A DNA stretch of 64,000 nucleotides, taken from the NCBI GenBank assembly GCA_030549335.1, contig JAUKPH010000017.1, forward strand, positions 4,085,001 to 4,149,000, in the 5' to 3' direction. The position numbers were made by a program, and so were the translations under genes. The notes beneath the pieces are model-generated. The model did not search any database. It saw nothing but the letters and a program-made list of their open reading frames with translations, and had not been told where the DNA came from. The stretch comes from Pontederia crassipes. Lineage: Eukaryota; Streptophyta; Magnoliopsida; Commelinales; Pontederiaceae. Within the stretch, counting starts at the first letter, position 1. Each line of letters begins with the position of its first letter. This document shows, one piece after another, positions 10,529-62,917 of this stretch.

Positions 10529-10551
10529 GATTTTAATGTAAATATATATAT
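9111..10551. other. AT-rich intergenic DNA with microsatellites
   Basis: No coding exon is recognisable. It contains a (TA)n run at 10226-10255 and a (CT)n then (AT)n tract at 10483-10528 that adjoins the long-inverted-repeat element starting at 10552. Confidence 0.6.
10226..10255. repeat. (TA)n microsatellite
   Basis: About 15 uninterrupted TA dinucleotides. A second compound tract, (CT)n followed by (AT)n with a GT interruption, lies at 10483-10528. Confidence 0.95.
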
Positions 10552-11174
10552 GGTATAATGATTATGTGAAGCAGCTGCCGCTCTGCATCATGCGAAGCGC
10601 AATCTCGACCGTCCGATCGCGATCTGATGGTGGATATAGAGGCGCTCATCAAAATCTCATCGCACAACCAACAATCATCTCACGAGATTTTTGTTTTCCT
10701 ATTCACTGGCCCGCTCATTTTTTCATTTCCCCTCTATATCTTTTCCTCTTTTGTCTTTTTCCCTCTTATACGGTTATACCTCCTCTCGCTCTAAATCTCT
10801 CTCTCTCTCGCCATTTCTCCGGCGCTCTATTGCAGATCCACCTCTTCTTTCTTCTTCAACGAGCGCAGAGCAGCTCTACCTTCTTCTCTGGTGACCGCGT
10901 TCTCCGACGAACACAAATGTAGGTACTGCTCTTAACCTCTCTCTTGCTCTCTCTCTCACGTTCACCTCTCTCTCTCATCGTCTTCTCCTCCGACGAGTGC
11001 ATTAGTTAGAGTGCCATTCTTCTTCAGTGACCACCTTTACCCTTTTCTTTGGTGAGTGCCTCTACCATTTTCTCTGGCGCGCGTGAGTGCAGGTGTGCTC
11101 TCACTCTGACCTCCCCCCCCCCCCCTTCTCTGGTGCAGGTGTGCTCTCACTCTTTCCATCTCTCACCCTGACCT

Positions 11175-11208
<34 letters not shown>

Positions 11209-13112
11209 CCCCTTCTCTGGCAATGTAGGGGTGGTGATCAATGGCTGATAAGGGCACACAGAAGACACAAATCATATAGGGCATAACCTGCAACTGGTTC
11301 AGAAGGATGTTTTAAAATCAGTCTTTTTTTGTCTTGGAGAGTTGTATGCATGCTTGCCTTCTTTTGAGTATAAATCAGATGGCTAAATCATTTTGTTGCC
11401 TTGCAGTCATGCCTCCTCAATTGGTGGCCCTGCTTTGGTGGAGTCCCATCTCTAACACCGAGGATAAGCTCCTCCATGAATTGGAATATTTCTTCAATTG
11501 GGCACTTTGCTACTATGGCTTTTGTTCTGTGCGTGTACTACTGTCTTTAAGGACTTTGTGGAACGCAGTGCAGAATCTATTAATGTATTTTGTTATGGGT
11601 TGTATGGATTAGCATTAGTTTATTTTCAGTTGTTTAGGTATTTTGATATTTCATCATCACCATTTAAAATCCTTGGGTTGTTCATTGGGTTATTCTCTTT
11701 TATTGTTTCAGTTTCATAATGGTGAAAAAATTATATGACAGTTGCTTTATATAATGATTAATGAACTGACCAACAACCTACGCGAAGAATTGTTCAATTT
11801 ATGTTCGATTAGTCACCAAGATCTTGACGGTTTTGTTCAAGTTTAAGATTGAGTCAATAATAAAATGGATTTGATAACTAAGTTCATACTTACAAAATTA
11901 AATGCAAGTTTTTATATGAATAATCTAATTATGAAGTTAAAATCTCATAATATAATTAATATCTAATCAGGGTAATTAAAGCATCAAAATATTATAGCAA
12001 CAAATCAAAATGACATATTATAGAGAATCTGTTGCTTCTTTCCATGAAAAGTTCAAGAGTTGTTCAAGGTTACATAGCGACCTAGAAAGAATTATCGGCC
12101 AAAACAATAACTCTGATTTTTGCACAATGGAGATGACTATTACATTTGTCTAATTTTTCTCCTGTGAAAAATACCAATTTTGGAAACCGGGGTACCCAGT
12201 AACAAGAGCTGTGTCAACAAATGGACTCCTTGCATATGTCGATCTTCCTACCTCTTGTGCCCTCATCACTAAGAACTCGACAATTTCCTAAGAAGCAAAG
12301 CATGCGACCCTCTTCAACAATACCAATTTTGGAAATCTAGAGTAGAGATACACATGAAATGTTTAATGTGGACTAAGATTCCAATGGAAGATGAAAAATG
12401 AAGTAGATCGTCTCCCTTCTCTATTTGCAAAGGAAAATTGAATCCGTAAATCATCAGTGTGATCTTCTTAAAGATCGAACTGTTGCTTAGAGAGAGAGAG
12501 ATGGGGGGAGAGAGGTTGAGGAAGAGAAGGAAAGGGTGAAATTAGCACCTACACTTGCGCATGCCAGAGAAGTTGGTAGAGGTGCTTGCCAAAAACAAGG
12601 GGAGAGGTGGTCTTTGGAGAAGAAGGTAGAGCCGCTAGCACCCTAAGCCCTGCACTCGCTGGAGGAGAAGATGAAGAGAGAGAGAGAGAGGGTGAGGGTG
12701 ACAGTGAGAGAGAAAGAGAGCAAGCGAGAGAGGTCGGGAGCAACACCAGTACTCGCGATCGCTTGAGAAGAAGATAGAGACATCGCTGCGCTCGCCGAAG
12801 AAGAAAGAAGAGGTGGATTTGCAGTTGAAGGGAGGCAGATCTGCAGCATCGGAGATTGGCGAGAGAGATTTAGGGCGAGAGAGGGAGGCATATGAGGGAA
12901 AAGGTAAAAGAGGGGATGGGGAGAGAGAGAGGGGAAATGAAAAAAATGAGCGGGCCATCTAGAGGGAAACAAAAATCTCATGAGATGATTGTTGGCCGTG
13001 CGATGAGATCTGGACGGGCGCCTCAAAATCCACCATCAGATCGCGATCGGACGGTCAAGATTGCGCTTCGCATGGTGCTGAGCGGCAGCTGCTTCACACA
13101 ATCATTATACCC
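10552..13112. mobile_element. 2.56-kb element with ~600-bp terminal inverted repeats, probably non-autonomous Mutator-like
   Basis: The left end reads GGTATAATGATTATGTGAAG. The right end is its inverse, ending CACAATCATTATACC(C). The inverted similarity is long: the left arm, about 10552-11150, pairs with the right arm, about 12500-13112, including the shared segment GACCGTCCGATCGCGATCTG and CT-rich parts. Arms this long suggest a Mutator-like element. The flanks are (AT)n on both sides, so a 9-bp duplication is compatible but cannot be proven. The interior, about 11150-12500, shows no transposase. It has an intron-like stretch ending in a CAG acceptor at about 11406, followed by an open segment I do not recognise, which may be captured gene sequence. 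Confidence 0.75.
11176..11212. repeat. poly-C tract
   Basis: Thirty consecutive C, one T and six more C. A shorter C run is at 11113-11125. Between them TCTCTGGTGCAGGTGTGCTC repeats a motif seen just upstream, so this end of the left inverted-repeat arm contains local tandem duplication. Run length may be affected by sequencing. Confidence 0.9.
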
Positions 13113-36439: not shown

Positions 36440-39400
36440 CGTAATAAAAAGGTAATAATTTAATTATGAATAGTTGCAAAACAATAACTGATATAATTTC
36501 TTAAGTTTTTGTCTGTACTTTTGTTTCCCATCTGCTACACTAATCTAAACATCCTTGAGCCTACGTATTGACGACAAAGTAGTCTTTTTCTTTTATTCTC
36601 TATGATATCTCAGTTTCGCATTTGCCTGTATTGATCTCTGATTCCTGTGATATATCATTATTTCATTTAATTTTCCTAAGTGCGCTTAAGGAAAAACAAG
36701 AATTTAATTTGCATCCAAGATAAGTTTATATTTACAAAATTAAGATGTATGTGCATGTGATAAAAAAATCAATGTAACATTGCACCATTAGGAAATATTA
36801 TTTTATTTGAAAAATAAAAGAAAAGGGATAAAATGGAATTTTATTGTAATCAAAAGTTGATTAACTAAATTTTATGAATAGTTGCTAAACAATAACTGAT
36901 TTAATTTCTTTTTTTTGTCTATATCCTTTTTTCCATCATCTTAGTCTACTACACTAATCTATGCATCCCTGACATTTAGCCCAAAGTCTTTCCAACAAAG
37001 TAGTTTTTTTATTCTCTATGATATCTCTCTGGACTTGTTCACACTCTTTTTTCTATCATTATGCAGGGCTCGTCTATATTTTTAAAATATGATGAATTCA
37101 TCCTAATAAGAATTATGCTAGAATTGATCCTGGTAATGCTCTTGTTGATGATGTCTCCCTTCTCCTCCTCCCACTATTCCTCCTTGGATGCTATCTCGTA
37201 TTCTTCTTTTTTTAGACGTTTATAGGGGCGCTAAGAGGAGGAAGAACAAATGGACGTGCCATTATCGAATTGATACCTAGAATGCTATTATTAGCAATAG
37301 TTAGTTTAACTAATCTCAACTCTATTTATGCATCCGATGCTAACATTCAATTATTATTAAGGGTATTAGTACTTGTTTTATTTATGCTAGCAAAGCCTAC
37401 GTTGAATAACGTGGAGCTAAAGTTAAATGATGTGGAAAGAGTTAATAGAGTATTTTGATATGAATGTTACTAATTGTTTTATTTATTATGTGAAAGTCCA
37501 CAATGGAGTATATGGAGCTTGTCTATCAAGTGAAAAGAATTAATTGAGTCATTTGTTTTGTTTTTATTAGGTTTATTATTAGAAATTATATTTATGAGTA
37601 TTTTTTACAAGTAGATTAGATGATTATTTGCTTGATAAATAAAGTTTATTTGAGAATTAAAATAAACTTTGACATTTTCCCACTATTCTTATACACATTT
37701 TTCCCACTATTATTATACACTAGTACTCGTACAACACAATTATTTTCCAATTCCTCCTTGTCCTCCAACTTTAATCAAATGATTTGGAATTAAAGGGACA
37801 ATATATATAATAGTTTATTTAATTTATTTGAAAATTAAAGCATTCTCGTGGGTGTTACTAATTGTTTTATTATGTGAAAGTCCACAATGAAGTATATGGA
37901 GCTTATTGATCAAGTGGAAAGACTTAATTGGGTCGTTTGTTTTGTTTTTTTACTAGGTTTATTGTTAGAAAGTATATTTATGAGTATTTTTGAAAAGTAG
38001 ATTAGATGATGATTTGCTTGATTAATAAATTTTATTTGAGAATTAAAATAAATTTTGACATTTTTCCCACTACTCTTATATAAAACATGATTTTCTTGAG
38101 TATGTGAGTGGGAGTTAAGTGGTAATATTTTGATTATAAATAATTGCTAAACAATAACTGATTTAATTCCTTTTCTTGTCTAACATTGGACTTCACTACG
38201 GGGACATGCCATTCGGAGGACGTCTTCGTCTGGGAGGCTTCCGAGTTCCGAGGCATTTTCAATAAGGTATGCTCATTGTCATCCCTTATTATTTTGTCCA
38301 TCTTTTGTAATTTTGATTTAAATGTGATGAACACCCTTCATCCCTATAAGAATTCTGTTGGCCTTGCTCCTGTTAATGCTGCTGCTAGGGATGATGCTGA
38401 GATGACTTGTTGTCTTTCTCCTCCTTCTCCTACTATTTCTTCTTGGATGCGTATTCTTTTTTTTAGATGTTTATAGGGAGGAGGAAGAAGAAATGAATGC
38501 GCCATCATCAAATTGATACCTAGAATGCTATTTTAGCAATAGCTAGTTTAACTAATCTCAGTTCTATTATGCATCCGATGCTAAAGTTAAATTGTTATCA
38601 AGGGTATTAGTAATTGTTATTTTTATGCTGGCAAAGCCTACAATGAATAACGTGGAGCTAGTCATCATGTGGAAAGAGTTAATAGAGTATTTTGATATGG
38701 GTGTTACTAATTATTTTATTTATTATGTGAAAATCCACAATGAAGTATATGGAGCTTGTTTATCGAGTGGAAAGAATTAATTGAGTCATTTGTTTTGTTT
38801 TTTTATTAGGTTTATGTTTAGAAATTAGATTTATGAGTATTTTTTACAAGTAGATTACATGATGATTTGATTGATAAATAAAAATTATTTGATAATTAAA
38901 ATAACTTCTAACATTCTTCCCACTATTCTTATACACAAGTGCTCGTACAACACAATTATTTTCCAATTCATCATTGTCCTCCGACTCATGAAAATGATAG
39001 TGGGGTGTTTGATATTATTTGTTTTCTTTAATTTTTGAAAGATTTATTCAAGTATCGACGCAGAGAGAATTAAGAAGAAATCAACATTTAGTCGGGAATC
39101 ATTAATTTAATACTAAGATGATATTATTACTAATAGCTAATTTAACTAATTTCAATTATATATACATCAAATCAAATATGAAAATTAAATCATTCATTTC
39201 GATGTTACTAACTATTTTATTTATCATGTAAAAAGACCATAATGAAATAGGTGGAGCTTATTGATATAGTTGAAAGATTTGATTAAGTTGTTTGTTTTAT
39301 TTTTTTATTAATTTTTTTCTTAGAAACCAGATTTATGAGGATGTTTTTACAAATGAATTAGATTGACATGGTGGGAGTATAGAATGAAAAGATTGTAACT

Positions 39401-41900
39401 AAATAAAGTTTATTAGAATGAAAAAGTTGGTAATTAAATGGAGTTTATTTTAATATGTTATCTATGATTTTAATATCTTTCCATCCTCCTCTTTTTTTCC
39501 CCTCTGCTTGAGATGTTTTCTTGCCTGCATCTGCACCATTCTTCCATCAGTAGCATTGTACTTTGCTACGGGTAATGTCTCTTTTTGGAAGAGGGAATTA
39601 GCGTCTTTGTGTAGGAGGGTACTAGTTTGGCTTCGAAGGCATTCTTTAATAATATAACTTAATTAAGTTCATTTTATTTCTTCTTGTTATTTTATGATTT
39701 TGTTTTAAACTTGATTGATGGCTCCTCCTCTTGATAAGAAGTCTGGTATTTGTCTTCCTATTTTTAATGTTGCTACTGATAATGATGTTTAGGTGACTCT
39801 TGCTACTCCATAAGAATAAAATGATGTAAAAAAGTTCAATAAATATTAAATAATAATATTTTTGGGTATAATTAATCATTTTATTTATCATGGCAAAGCC
39901 TATCATAAAGGATAATAAGTTAAAAGAGTTGATGTGTTATTTGTTTTGTTTTTCTCTTTTGATATAATAGCACTTGAACTTTAATCAAATGATTTGGAAT
40001 TAAAAGGGACAGTATACATAATAGTTTCTTTAATTTATTTAAAAATTAAAGCATTCTCGTGGGTGTTACTAATTGTTTTATTTATATGTGAAAGTTCACA
40101 ATAAAATATATGGAGCTTGTTGATCAATTGAAAGAATAATTGAGTCGTTTGTTTTGTTTCTTCAATAGGTTTATTGTTAGAAAGTAGATTTTTAAAAGTA
40201 GATTAGATGATGATTTAATTGACTAATAAAGTTTATTTGAGAATTAAAACAAATTATGACATTTTTCCCACTATTCTTATACACAAGCGCTCATACAAAC
40301 GATTTTTTTGAGTTTGTCAGTGGGAGATAAGTGGTAATATTTTGATTATGAATAGTTGCTAAGCAATAACTAATTTAATTCCTTTTCTTGTCTAACATTG
40401 GACTTCCCTTGGGGGACATGCCATTCGGAGGACGTTTTGGTCTAGGAGGCTTCCGAGGCATTTTCAATAAGGTATGCTTATTGTCATCCCTTATTATTTT
40501 GTCCTTCTTTTGTAATTTTGATTTGAATGTGATGAATTCTCTTCATCCTAATAAGAATTCTGCTGGCCTTGCTCCTATTAATGCTGCTGCTGGGGAAGAT
40601 GCCGAGGTGACTCCTAGTGGTGTTGTCTTCATCTCCCTTCTCCTCCTCCTACTATTCTTCCTTGGATGCTATCTTGTATTCTTCTTTTTTTTTCATACGT
40701 ATAGGGGTGCCAAGAGGAGGAAGAACAAATGGACGTGTCATAATCAAATTGATACCTAGAATGCTATTATTAGCAATAGTTAGTTTAACTAATCTCAGTT
40801 TTATTTATGCATCTCATGCTAAAGTTAAATTATTATCAAGGGTGTTAGTACTTGTTTTGTTTATGCTGGCAAAGTAAAATGTTTCATTTTCCCCCTTTCC
40901 CTTTTTTTTGTCGAGTGACTTCGTTCCTCCTCTTCTGGAATGTATACAGTGAGTCAAATCTGATGTACCATTGCCTCGCACCAGATAACAATGGAATAAA
41001 TTCCAAAAATCTGCCCCAATACCGATTGATCATGATGTAGAAACTGCTTCATGCATATAATAGAGCCAACCGTCGTATTTTCCTTCGCTTCCCTATGAAA
41101 GATATCCAATCAATCAAAATAGAGGTTAAAGAGGGTCTTTATGCTCGTCGTGTCCTTTATATGAAATCAGAGGTCAAGGAGCTATTCTTTTGACTCGTAC
41201 TGATGAGAATTTTACTCCATGAGAAATTGAACAAAAAATTGCGAAATTGGCCTAAAAAATTCCCTCACCGGAACTGCGACCCTTTAGGGATAACAAATGA
41301 TAATAAATCCCCAAACCTGAAATGAGACACTTTAGGGATAAATAATAACTAAACTGAGACCATATATGAATAACGGTGAATAACGTGGAGTTACTGATCA
41401 TGCGGAGAGCTTGTTTATCAAGGGGAAAGAATTAATTGAGTCGTTTGTTTTGTTTTAATTAGGTTTATTGTTAGAAATTAGATTTATGAGTATTTTTTTA
41501 CAAGTAGATTAGATGATGATTTGCTTGATAAATAAAGTTTATTTAAGAATTAAAATAAACTCTGAATTTTTTCCCACTATTCTTATACATAAGTTCTTGT
41601 ACACACAATTATTTTCCAATTCCTCCTTATCCAACTCATGAAAATGATAGTGGGATGTTTTTTTATATTATTTGTTTTCTTTAATTTTTGAAATATTTAT
41701 TCAATTATCAACAAAGAAGAAAAAAGAAATCAACATTTAGTCGGGCGTCATTAAATTAATACTGAGATGGTATTATTAATAATAGCTAATTTAACTAATT
41801 TCAATTTATATATACATCAGATGTGAAAATTAAATCATTCATTTCGATGTTACTAACTATTTTATTTATCATGGCAAAGTCAACAAGCTGGAAGAGGGGG
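36440..41900. repeat. patchwork of locally amplified units with related short open frames
   Basis: Three modules recur. Module 1, ending in GTTGCTAAACAATAACTGAT, is near 36471, 36881, 38141 and 40351. Module 2 is an open-frame module at about 37090-37460, 38186-38700 and 40388-40877; two copies start with GGACATGCCATTCGGAGGACG. Module 3 is a tail module with TTGAGTCATTTGTTTTGTTT and CCCACTATTCTTATACACA near 37520, 37895, 38755, 40110 and 41405. The 38.14- and 40.35-kb copies are about 2.2 kb apart. The longest open frame, 123 codons from 40388, has a GGRFGLGGFRG start and a very hydrophobic stretch followed by KRRKNKW. Another frame shared by copies reads PRMLLLAIVSLTNL. I do not recognise the family. 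Confidence 0.7.
41066..41255 (+). pseudogene. ycf4: nuclear plastid DNA fragment: 3' part of ycf4
   Basis: Translation gives [20 protein letters not shown], then [12 protein letters not shown], the C-terminal part of the plastid photosystem I assembly protein Ycf4. A one-base deletion at about 41162 shifts the frame. The continuation [12 protein letters not shown] is followed by a TGA where the family has an Arg codon (a CGA to TGA change), then EIEQK-like residues and a break in similarity after about 41255. It is a dead nuclear insertion (NUPT) with typical C-to-T decay, lying inside the amplified block. Confidence 0.88.
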
Positions 41901-41965
41901 CGCCGGCCCCCTTTTTGCTCGAGCTCGCACGGGGGGCGCGGTCCCCTCGAGCTCGTCGACGCCCT
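41885..41965. repeat. GC-rich palindromic patch
   Basis: Contains GGGGGCGCCGGCCCCC and two CTCGAGCTCG cores inside AT-rich DNA. It resembles the GC-rich U3 block of the copia-like solo LTR at 29.7 kb, so it may be a remnant of such an LTR, but no ends are visible. Confidence 0.6.
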
Positions 41966-42064
41966 TGTCATTTTTATTTTTTATTAATTTTCATAATATT
42001 TTATTATATTATTTTTATTATATCATGTTAATAAGTTAAATTTTTATTATATTTTATTACATTA

Positions 42065-62000: not shown

Positions 62001-62009
62001 GTTTAATAG

Positions 62010-62908
62010 GGGTAAAGAGGTGATGCTTAGCGCTTGCGCTATGCAGCCTGCTGAGCGAGCATCGCAGTCGTCCGATTCCATCAGGTGAAGAGGCGAGCTC
62101 ATCCCATGGCCAATCGAGGCTGATTCGCTTGTGTTCTGTCCCTTTCGGCTGCGCCTTCAATGTTATCTCTAGCGCCACCTCCGGTGCTTCCCTCACTGGC
62201 ATCCTCGGCCTCAACCATCAGATGGCCATCAAATGGAAGTTCATTGGATGGCCATCGCTTGCGTTGTTTTTTCCTGCTCTTTTTCTCTCGATGATTTCAA
62301 CATTTTAGAACCCCTATATCTTCCCCTCGTTCTGGTCCCTTCTCATCCCTGTTGAGTTCCCGCTCGTGAGCTCCAGTATACTCTGCGGTCATTGGAGAGC
62401 ACAGGAGGGCACGAAAATGGAAACTGGAGCTGGGAATTACAACCCCAGGATGCCGAAAGAGGTCTTCGGGGACTTCAGAGGCTGAAGAGCTGGCATGATC
62501 AAAGCTCTCACCACCAGTACACGAAAAAGCTTCGACATTTAGTTGCATTGTTCAATATATTTTTATGTCACAGATGTCGATAGTTTTTTCAAGCAATGCG
62601 ATCCCGGTGAGTTATCTGTTTCATTTTTCCTTTGGTTTCAATTCCTTCGTTGCGTTGATGCTATGGCTCGATGTTTTGTGTCAATTTTTTTATGTTTAAA
62701 AGGTCGTTGGCTATCTTCAACTTGTCCATTTTGAATGGCCAACTGATTTTGGCGGTAGCAAGGTTCCGAAGGAAGGAAGGCCATCGGATGGAAGCTGCGA
62801 TGGAGTAAAAGAAAAAAAAAGGACGTGCCGTCTAAGTTGGATCCGAGGGTAAAGAGGCACGCTCGGCGGGCTACTTTAGCGCAAGCACAAAGCAACGCCT
62901 CTTTACCC
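62010..62908. mobile_element. 899-bp Pack-MULE (Mutator-like element carrying host gene sequence)
   Basis: The termini GGGTAAAGAGG and CCTCTTTACCC are perfect inverted ends, extended to about 55 bases of imperfect pairing (for example GCGCTTGCGCTA against TAGCGCAAGCAC). The flanks GTTTAATAG at 62001-62009 and 62909-62917 are an identical 9-bp target duplication, diagnostic of Mutator-like transposition. There is no transposase. The interior carries exon 1, intron 1 and exon 2 of an Alfin-like gene (62417-62606) plus a further GC-rich open stretch at about 62110-62290 that may be a second captured piece. Confidence 0.9.
62417..62606 (+). pseudogene. captured Alfin-like (PHD finger) gene fragment: exon 1, intron 1, exon 2
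   Basis: From ATG 62417 the frame reads METGAGNYNPRMPKEVFGDF, then RG, stop, RAGMIKALTT. This is the N-terminus of Alfin-like chromatin readers, with a TGA at 62483-62485 where an Arg codon is expected. A GT donor follows at 62517. A CAG acceptor before 62574 opens NVDSFFKQCDP, the next family segment, ending at a GTGAGT donor after 62606. Retaining the intron shows the fragment came from genomic DNA, not mRNA. The PHD finger itself is absent, so no functional histone reader is encoded. Confidence 0.88.
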
Positions 62909-62917
62909 GTTTAATAG

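Follow-up and report, generated by a model that had tools for sequence, protein, structure and literature searches.

Structure of the element

The window (the whole stretch of DNA analysed, 64,000 nucleotides) corresponds to C17:4085001-4149000 of a host genome of 1.13 Gb in 43 contigs, in which all match counts given below are lower bounds. At 62001-62917 of the window we found an element with inverted ends, enclosed by a direct repeat and containing pieces of two host genes, with the following features:

62001..62009, + strand: left target-site duplication GTTTAATAG, directly outside the inverted end
62010..62908, + strand: non-autonomous Mutator-like element (Pack-MULE), 899 bp, GC 0.48
62010..62064, + strand: 5' terminal inverted repeat (the part pairing with the 3' end), 44/55 alignment columns identical
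62102..62212, + strand: captured aspartyl-protease (TAXi) coding piece 1, 87% to bases 670-780 of the L019 ORF
62213..62266, + strand: filler that separates the Alfin piece from protease piece 1, majority sequence GGATGGCCATC twice
62267..62731, + strand: captured Alfin-like genomic DNA, running from the leader through exon 1, a shortened intron 1 and exon 2 into intron 2, by BLAST
62417..62516, + strand: Alfin-like exon 1, ATG at 62417, in-frame TGA at 62483-62485 (CGA in the donors)
62517..62573, + strand: what is left of intron 1, 57 nt against 112-113 nt in the donors
62574..62606, + strand: Alfin-like exon 2, 33 nt
62607..62731, + strand: beginning of intron 2, with GT donor
62751..62788, + strand: captured protease piece 2 (donor ORF bases 1164-1202), BLAST E 1.8e-4
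62796..62908, - strand: 3' terminal inverted repeat, about 113 bp, common to other elements of the genome
62847..62858, + strand: 12 bp of the element end repeated in inverted orientation within the 3' terminal repeat, exact match
62909..62917, + strand: right target-site duplication GTTTAATAG, 9/9 identical to the left one

The initial annotation of this DNA, made from the letters alone, had described a perfect 9-bp target duplication and perfect 11-bp terminal inverted ends. The duplication was borne out, with GTTTAATAG at 62001-62009 and 62909-62917, and so were the 11-bp ends (62010-62020 and 62898-62908), the real ends being longer, as the 44 identical columns of 55 indicate. When the 64-kb window was scanned for inverted ends spaced 100-5000 bp, 62010-62908 was the sole structure in which 11-bp inverted ends are bordered by a 9-bp direct repeat, and no such structure was present in any of 60 dinucleotide shuffles (ends with at least three G/C counted). 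The GC content of 0.48 inside the element compares with 0.268 and 0.248 in the 500 bp upstream and downstream, respectively. The longest stop-to-stop frame overlapping the element had 94 aa, and in the 10 scanned frames of the 17 with at least 45 aa there was no Pfam match above the cut-off and none to a transposase up to E 1.

CACTA elements have a 3-bp target repeat and CACTA ends, and hAT elements have an 8-bp target repeat; a gene-capturing element of either kind was ruled out by the 9-bp repeats together with the GGGTAAAG ends. A target-site duplication of 7-11 bp adjoining both ends is given as the Pack-MULE criterion in a passage of PMC4858842. The element has target repeats in this range, opposed inverted ends, fragments of parental genes and, as far as the scanned frames reach, no transposase inside.

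The Alfin-like segment and its donor

The spliced 44-aa product of the two Alfin-like exons (with X at the stop) matched the Pfam Alfin profile at E 4.9e-8, and the solved ALFIN-LIKE 7 and ALFIN-LIKE 2 chains at E 1.1e-10 and 3.9e-7 (23/36 and 17/36 residues identical). The two-exon N-terminal Alfin-like fragment proposed earlier (exons 62417-62516 and 62574-62606) was therefore real, and the start codon and the single in-frame nonsense change (TGA) in exon 1 were as described; the ATG and the splice-like sites are undamaged in the window copy. The intron had also been described as retained, which held in part: intron sequence is present, but it is not whole, with 57 nt against 113 and 112 nt in the two donors. 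From all seven copies of the element in the genome, 40 aligned columns of donor intron 1 are absent. Because the Alfin frame ends after 22 codons, no coding function is evident for the window copy; if it is active at all, it would be, if anything, a source of small RNA.

As had been proposed, the segment was compared with the Alfin-like genes of the same genome, for which a family search gave at least 24 matches. The BLAST pieces 62267-62544 and 62558-62731 matched a pair of loci, C7:51768878-51769399 and C8:23685616-23686139, over the leader and both exons and also over part of each intron, with K of 0.204 and 0.217, whereas DNA matches to the other Alfin loci lay mainly in exons. The finding of this donor pair supports the view of a Mutator-like element that took up Alfin-like DNA including intron sequence. 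The capture as first described was right in this respect and incomplete in another, as a second captured gene and six further copies had been missed. The C7 gene has five exon-like frames, and its exons, joined by eye, encode a protein matching Alfin at 6.7e-69 and PHD at 2.5e-9; the C7 and C8 donors are apparently an intact pair of five-exon genes. Five exons and four introns are also reported for the Arabidopsis and Thellungiella relatives in passages of PMC3698079. Elsewhere on C7, four Alfin matches with identical scores lie about 4 kb apart (35385323, 35389339, 35393390 and 35397392), likely a recent tandem array of Alfin-like genes.

The protease pieces and the filler

Piece 1 of the protease could be named only through its donor locus: from sequence alone, 62102-62212 had no match in Pfam and one chance-level match in PDB. 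In the genome it matched C3:8952192-8952302 at 87% and a C4 duplicate of this locus at 86%. The C3 locus contains a 496-aa open frame with TAXi_N (4.9e-40), TAXi_C (2.7e-30) and Asp domains. Neither the Alfin loci on C7 and C8 nor the protease loci on C3 and C4 lie themselves inside an element of this type, as the end repeat had no match at E 1e-3 in the gene loci L015-L022.

Piece 1 is present in all seven copies of the element. Piece 2 was listed by BLAST in six of them (E 5e-5 to 0.008; 33-45 columns), with no match listed for the C12 copy. In each of four copies tested, its score was reached by none of 1000 resamples, and the controls with the reverse strand and with the Alfin gene scored 19-25 versus 42-51 for the piece itself. 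The two pieces keep the order and orientation of the donor, one on each side of the Alfin piece; being collinear with the donor, they indicate that the Alfin segment occupies the place of about 370 protease bases. At the left junction, the majority sequence of the seven copies has about 50 bp of filler containing two apparent GGATGGCCATC units, and it appears to have a third one immediately beyond the right edge of the Alfin piece; in the window copy these units are partly decayed. The element is thus the product of a two-gene capture at the DNA level, with Alfin sequence nested between collinear protease pieces.

Copies in the host genome and their insertion sites

The 48 matches listed include seven places that are copies of the element: C17 (the window), C4, C9, C6a, C6b, C12 and C5, the last in pieces. 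Reading the ends by eye, we found perfect 9-bp target repeats, all different in sequence, at C17 (GTTTAATAG), C9 (TAAGTTAAA), C6a (TTTATTAAT), C6b (TTTAATTAA) and C12 (ATTAATCTT). The repeat of the C4 copy is identical at 8/9 positions (GTTTAATAG on the left, ATTTAATAG on the right) and that of the C5 copy at 7/9. Each of the five different 9-bp targets contains TTAA, which may hint at a preference in the choice of target. In the C6a, C6b and C5 copies (L011, L012 and L014) alike, part of Alfin exon 1 is duplicated in tandem within the element, and the C5 copy has about 300 extra bp where intron 1 starts.

The flanks of the C17 and C4 copies match on both sides, in four pieces of 134-1110 bp at 87-93% identity and one of 55 bp at 82%. 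An RRM gene occurs near both, 39 kb from the window element and 24 kb from its C4 counterpart; the two genes are 97% identical and are oriented alike relative to the element. These matches indicate that C17 and C4 are duplicated blocks carrying one common insertion. The C5 and C6a copies also have flanks in common (84% over 785 bp upstream, 85% over 97 bp downstream), so that the seven copies represent five distinct insertion sites among the matches listed.

The flanks of the C9 copy were found again on C10 (85% over 723, 87% over 492 and 91% over 232 columns). There, the joined flanks are identical at 221/234 bases without a gap and contain a single TAAGTTAAA, and the element had no match at E 1e-5 in the corresponding 8-kb region. 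The 9-bp duplication structure was thereby upheld at a related position, where a sister copy of the window element has a precise empty site holding the 9-bp target once. Since C10 has the joined site free of the element, the C9 insertion most likely postdates the C9/C10 duplication, the less likely alternative being that the element was excised exactly from C10. Elements of this family thus moved as a unit and created 9-bp target duplications.

Taken with the structure of the locus, these copies make it highly probable that 62010-62908 belongs, as a degraded copy, to a multi-copy Pack-MULE family with two host-gene donors. The Alfin-protease family is new, and the kind to which it belongs, the Pack-MULE, is already known. 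To our knowledge, there is no earlier report of such a family, and a search for Alfin-like together with Pack-MULE in the set of papers covered found nothing.

The terminal repeats and an inner copy of the element end

A genome search for the same ends, which the initial annotation had suggested, gave at least 15 matches to the 3' terminal repeat, the window included. Scans of viral and genome contig collections with the end-repeat pattern gave no match. Six loci (L023-L028) have GGGTAAAGAGG ends as in the element and lack Alfin or protease pieces (e.g., L024:3335-4581 and L025:3574-4624); these elements may carry other captured genes.

The exact 12-bp inner copy of the element end was reached in none of 2000 resamples. 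Across the family, four members have it perfect (12/12), two at 10/12 and one at 8/12 positions; its distance from the terminus is 50 bp in every member except C5, where it is 40 bp. In the 5' repeat, no inner end copy above 7/12 was found in any of the seven. A one-off rearrangement was rejected as its source, and we regard it as a family feature, since it is present in the 3' repeat of all copies. It gives the 3' end of the window copy a hairpin (z -3.9). The 5' end and a second element of the window (10551-13112) folded no better than shuffles, and no general hairpin rule follows.

Age and sequence decay

The capture had been taken as fairly recent, and this claim was not supported. Judged from the divergence between the window piece and its donors and from the insertion that the window has in common with the C4 duplicate block, the capture is not recent. 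Over the captured segment, the K2P distance of the copies to the donors was 0.162-0.225, while the two Alfin donors differ from each other by 0.032. Between the C17 and C4 copies it was 0.106 over the whole element, and 0.044, 0.080 and 0.083 in three flank stretches; in sites, 83/851 differ in the element versus 96/1584 in the three stretches (Fisher p 0.001).

The features that give the window copy a young appearance, namely the intact 9-bp target repeat, the ATG and the single stop codon, are unreliable as indicators of age. Dating by the perfect target repeat was set aside as weak: with 5% change per site in each copy, 40% of the pairs would be expected to remain perfect. The homologous exon 1 triplet is CGA in the donors, TGA in six copies and TAA in C4; as the C-to-T change affects the same triplet in all seven copies, it is weak evidence on the age of the window insertion. 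Only in C17, C12 and C5 does the stop triplet share the frame of the start position (the start of C5 being ACG), and the C4, C9, C6a and C6b copies have frame-shifting changes upstream of it.

Of the sites in the window copy, 14/55 CG, 9/49 CHG and 12/107 CHH show C>T or G>A, and 14/219 A/T sites show transitions. In the other six copies, 14-16 of 48-58 CG sites were changed, these counts being non-independent owing to common ancestry. The excess of C>T and G>A would fit the decay of methylated cytosines, and from this pattern we infer that the family was probably methylated at one time, its CG sites decaying afterwards.

Origin of the composite

The seven copies point to one composite that was later amplified, because they have the layout, the intron deletion and the stop-triplet change in common. 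In a tree, they split from the Alfin genes with a support of 0.78; the common changes are the stronger argument for a single composite.

For the order of events, the reading we put forward, to which we give about an even chance, is that the protease came first and that its interior was then replaced by Alfin DNA through templated gap repair. An existing Pack-MULE would have taken in a protease fragment; a gap inside this fragment would then have been filled with a copy of Alfin DNA that lay on another chromosome. Template switching could have left the filler at the left junction, which repeats sequence found on the opposite side of the Alfin piece. This order lacks direct proof, because no element with an uninterrupted protease fragment was present among the 41 matches listed (a lower bound). 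The same absence of an intermediate would suit a single event, in which one repair copied the protease, switched to Alfin and then back to the protease. All three parts were found by BLAST in six of the seven copies, and the repeated filler fits template switching here as well, but the copying strand would have had to rejoin the same protease gene about 370 bases further along, and we regard a single event, whose product would be indistinguishable, as possible yet rather doubtful. It is unlikely that neighbouring protease and Alfin elements were fused and then re-mobilised through their outer ends. Fusion of neighbouring insertions is a model described for Pack-TYPE elements in passages of PMC8903248, and the inverted end copy inside the 3' terminal repeat resembles a leftover inner end; however, this copy is away from any protease-Alfin junction, and with protease on both sides of Alfin in donor order, side-by-side fusion would need further steps.

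A recent capture, possibly expressed as a truncated Alfin transcript or serving as a source of small RNA, could draw on the undamaged target repeat, ATG and splice-like sites of the window copy, and on the element strand, which folds better than 20/20 shuffles (z -7.9). Against these stand the distances to the donors (K 0.204-0.217), the insertion in common with the C4 duplicate, the stop triplet in all copies and the loss of 35/100 nt of exon 1 from the C4 copy, which leave this explanation very improbable; an old element might nevertheless act through small RNA. Alfin-like sequence outside a complete gene might also be a processed retrocopy or an ordinary segmental duplicate of an Alfin gene, but we give this almost no weight: the shortened intron 1 and the start of intron 2 are present, the Alfin piece is enclosed by inverted ends and the 9-bp duplication, and a sister copy has a clean empty site.

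If the order of protease first and Alfin by later gap repair is true, Pack-MULEs would gain donors through successive rounds of gap repair in their interior, and nesting together with filler could be read as a chronology of capture across genomes. The way in which Pack-MULEs take up DNA is unsettled, as gap repair on stem-loops and ectopic invasion (PMC4858842), fusion of neighbours (PMC8903248) and template switching (PMC8277862) are all proposed in passages of these papers. The family described here offers two donors, nesting, filler, seven copies, insertions common to duplicated blocks, one insertion absent from its duplicate and an exact empty site, and these features make the order of events testable in related genomes.

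Comparison with known elements

According to passages of PMC4858842 and PMC3310237, plant Pack-MULEs are non-autonomous, have 7-11 bp target repeats and inverted ends, and carry fragments of host genes, the captured DNA being GC-rich; the element agrees with them in these respects and differs in having a second donor inside the first and repeated filler at one joint. Uptake from several genes is described for Oryza in part of PMC4858842, where 5-10% of MULE-derived putative genes took frames from at least two parental genes. In having extra terminal sequence inside, the element resembles the MULEs with multiple terminal repeats of tomato and other plants, as described in part of PMC3310237, but here it is only a 12-bp inverted copy and not a whole extra repeat. 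In animal Pack-TIR elements, donor DNA is copied in by repair or replication, and passages of PMC8277862 explain the capture by gap filling or by fork stalling with template switching; the same kind of mechanism may have operated here. Unlike those, the present element is from a plant and has Mutator-type 9-bp target repeats, two donors and a multi-copy family.

Other features of the window

The second element of the window, at 10551-13112, has 149-nt inverted ends at 91% identity and, on both sides, ATATATATA within an AT run. Its end repeat had at least 40 matches in the genome including its own, and three further facing pairs lie about 2.5-2.6 kb apart (C14, C12 and C13); by these matches and pairs it belongs to a multi-copy family. 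When it was compared with the element at 62010, the pairwise score at the 5' end was reached by 1 and 3 of 2000 resamples, over a stretch that is partly protease-derived, and that at the 3' end by 765 and 372 of 2000. A profile built from the 10551-13112 element alone did not recover the 62010 end; on this ground, and because the aligned stretch is in part protease sequence, any kinship of the two elements is tentative, and a 104-bp 5' repeat of the 62010 element was dropped. Diverged direct repeats, with units of about 50-230 nt that are 60-95% alike, extend across 5 kb at 37100-42000 of the window.
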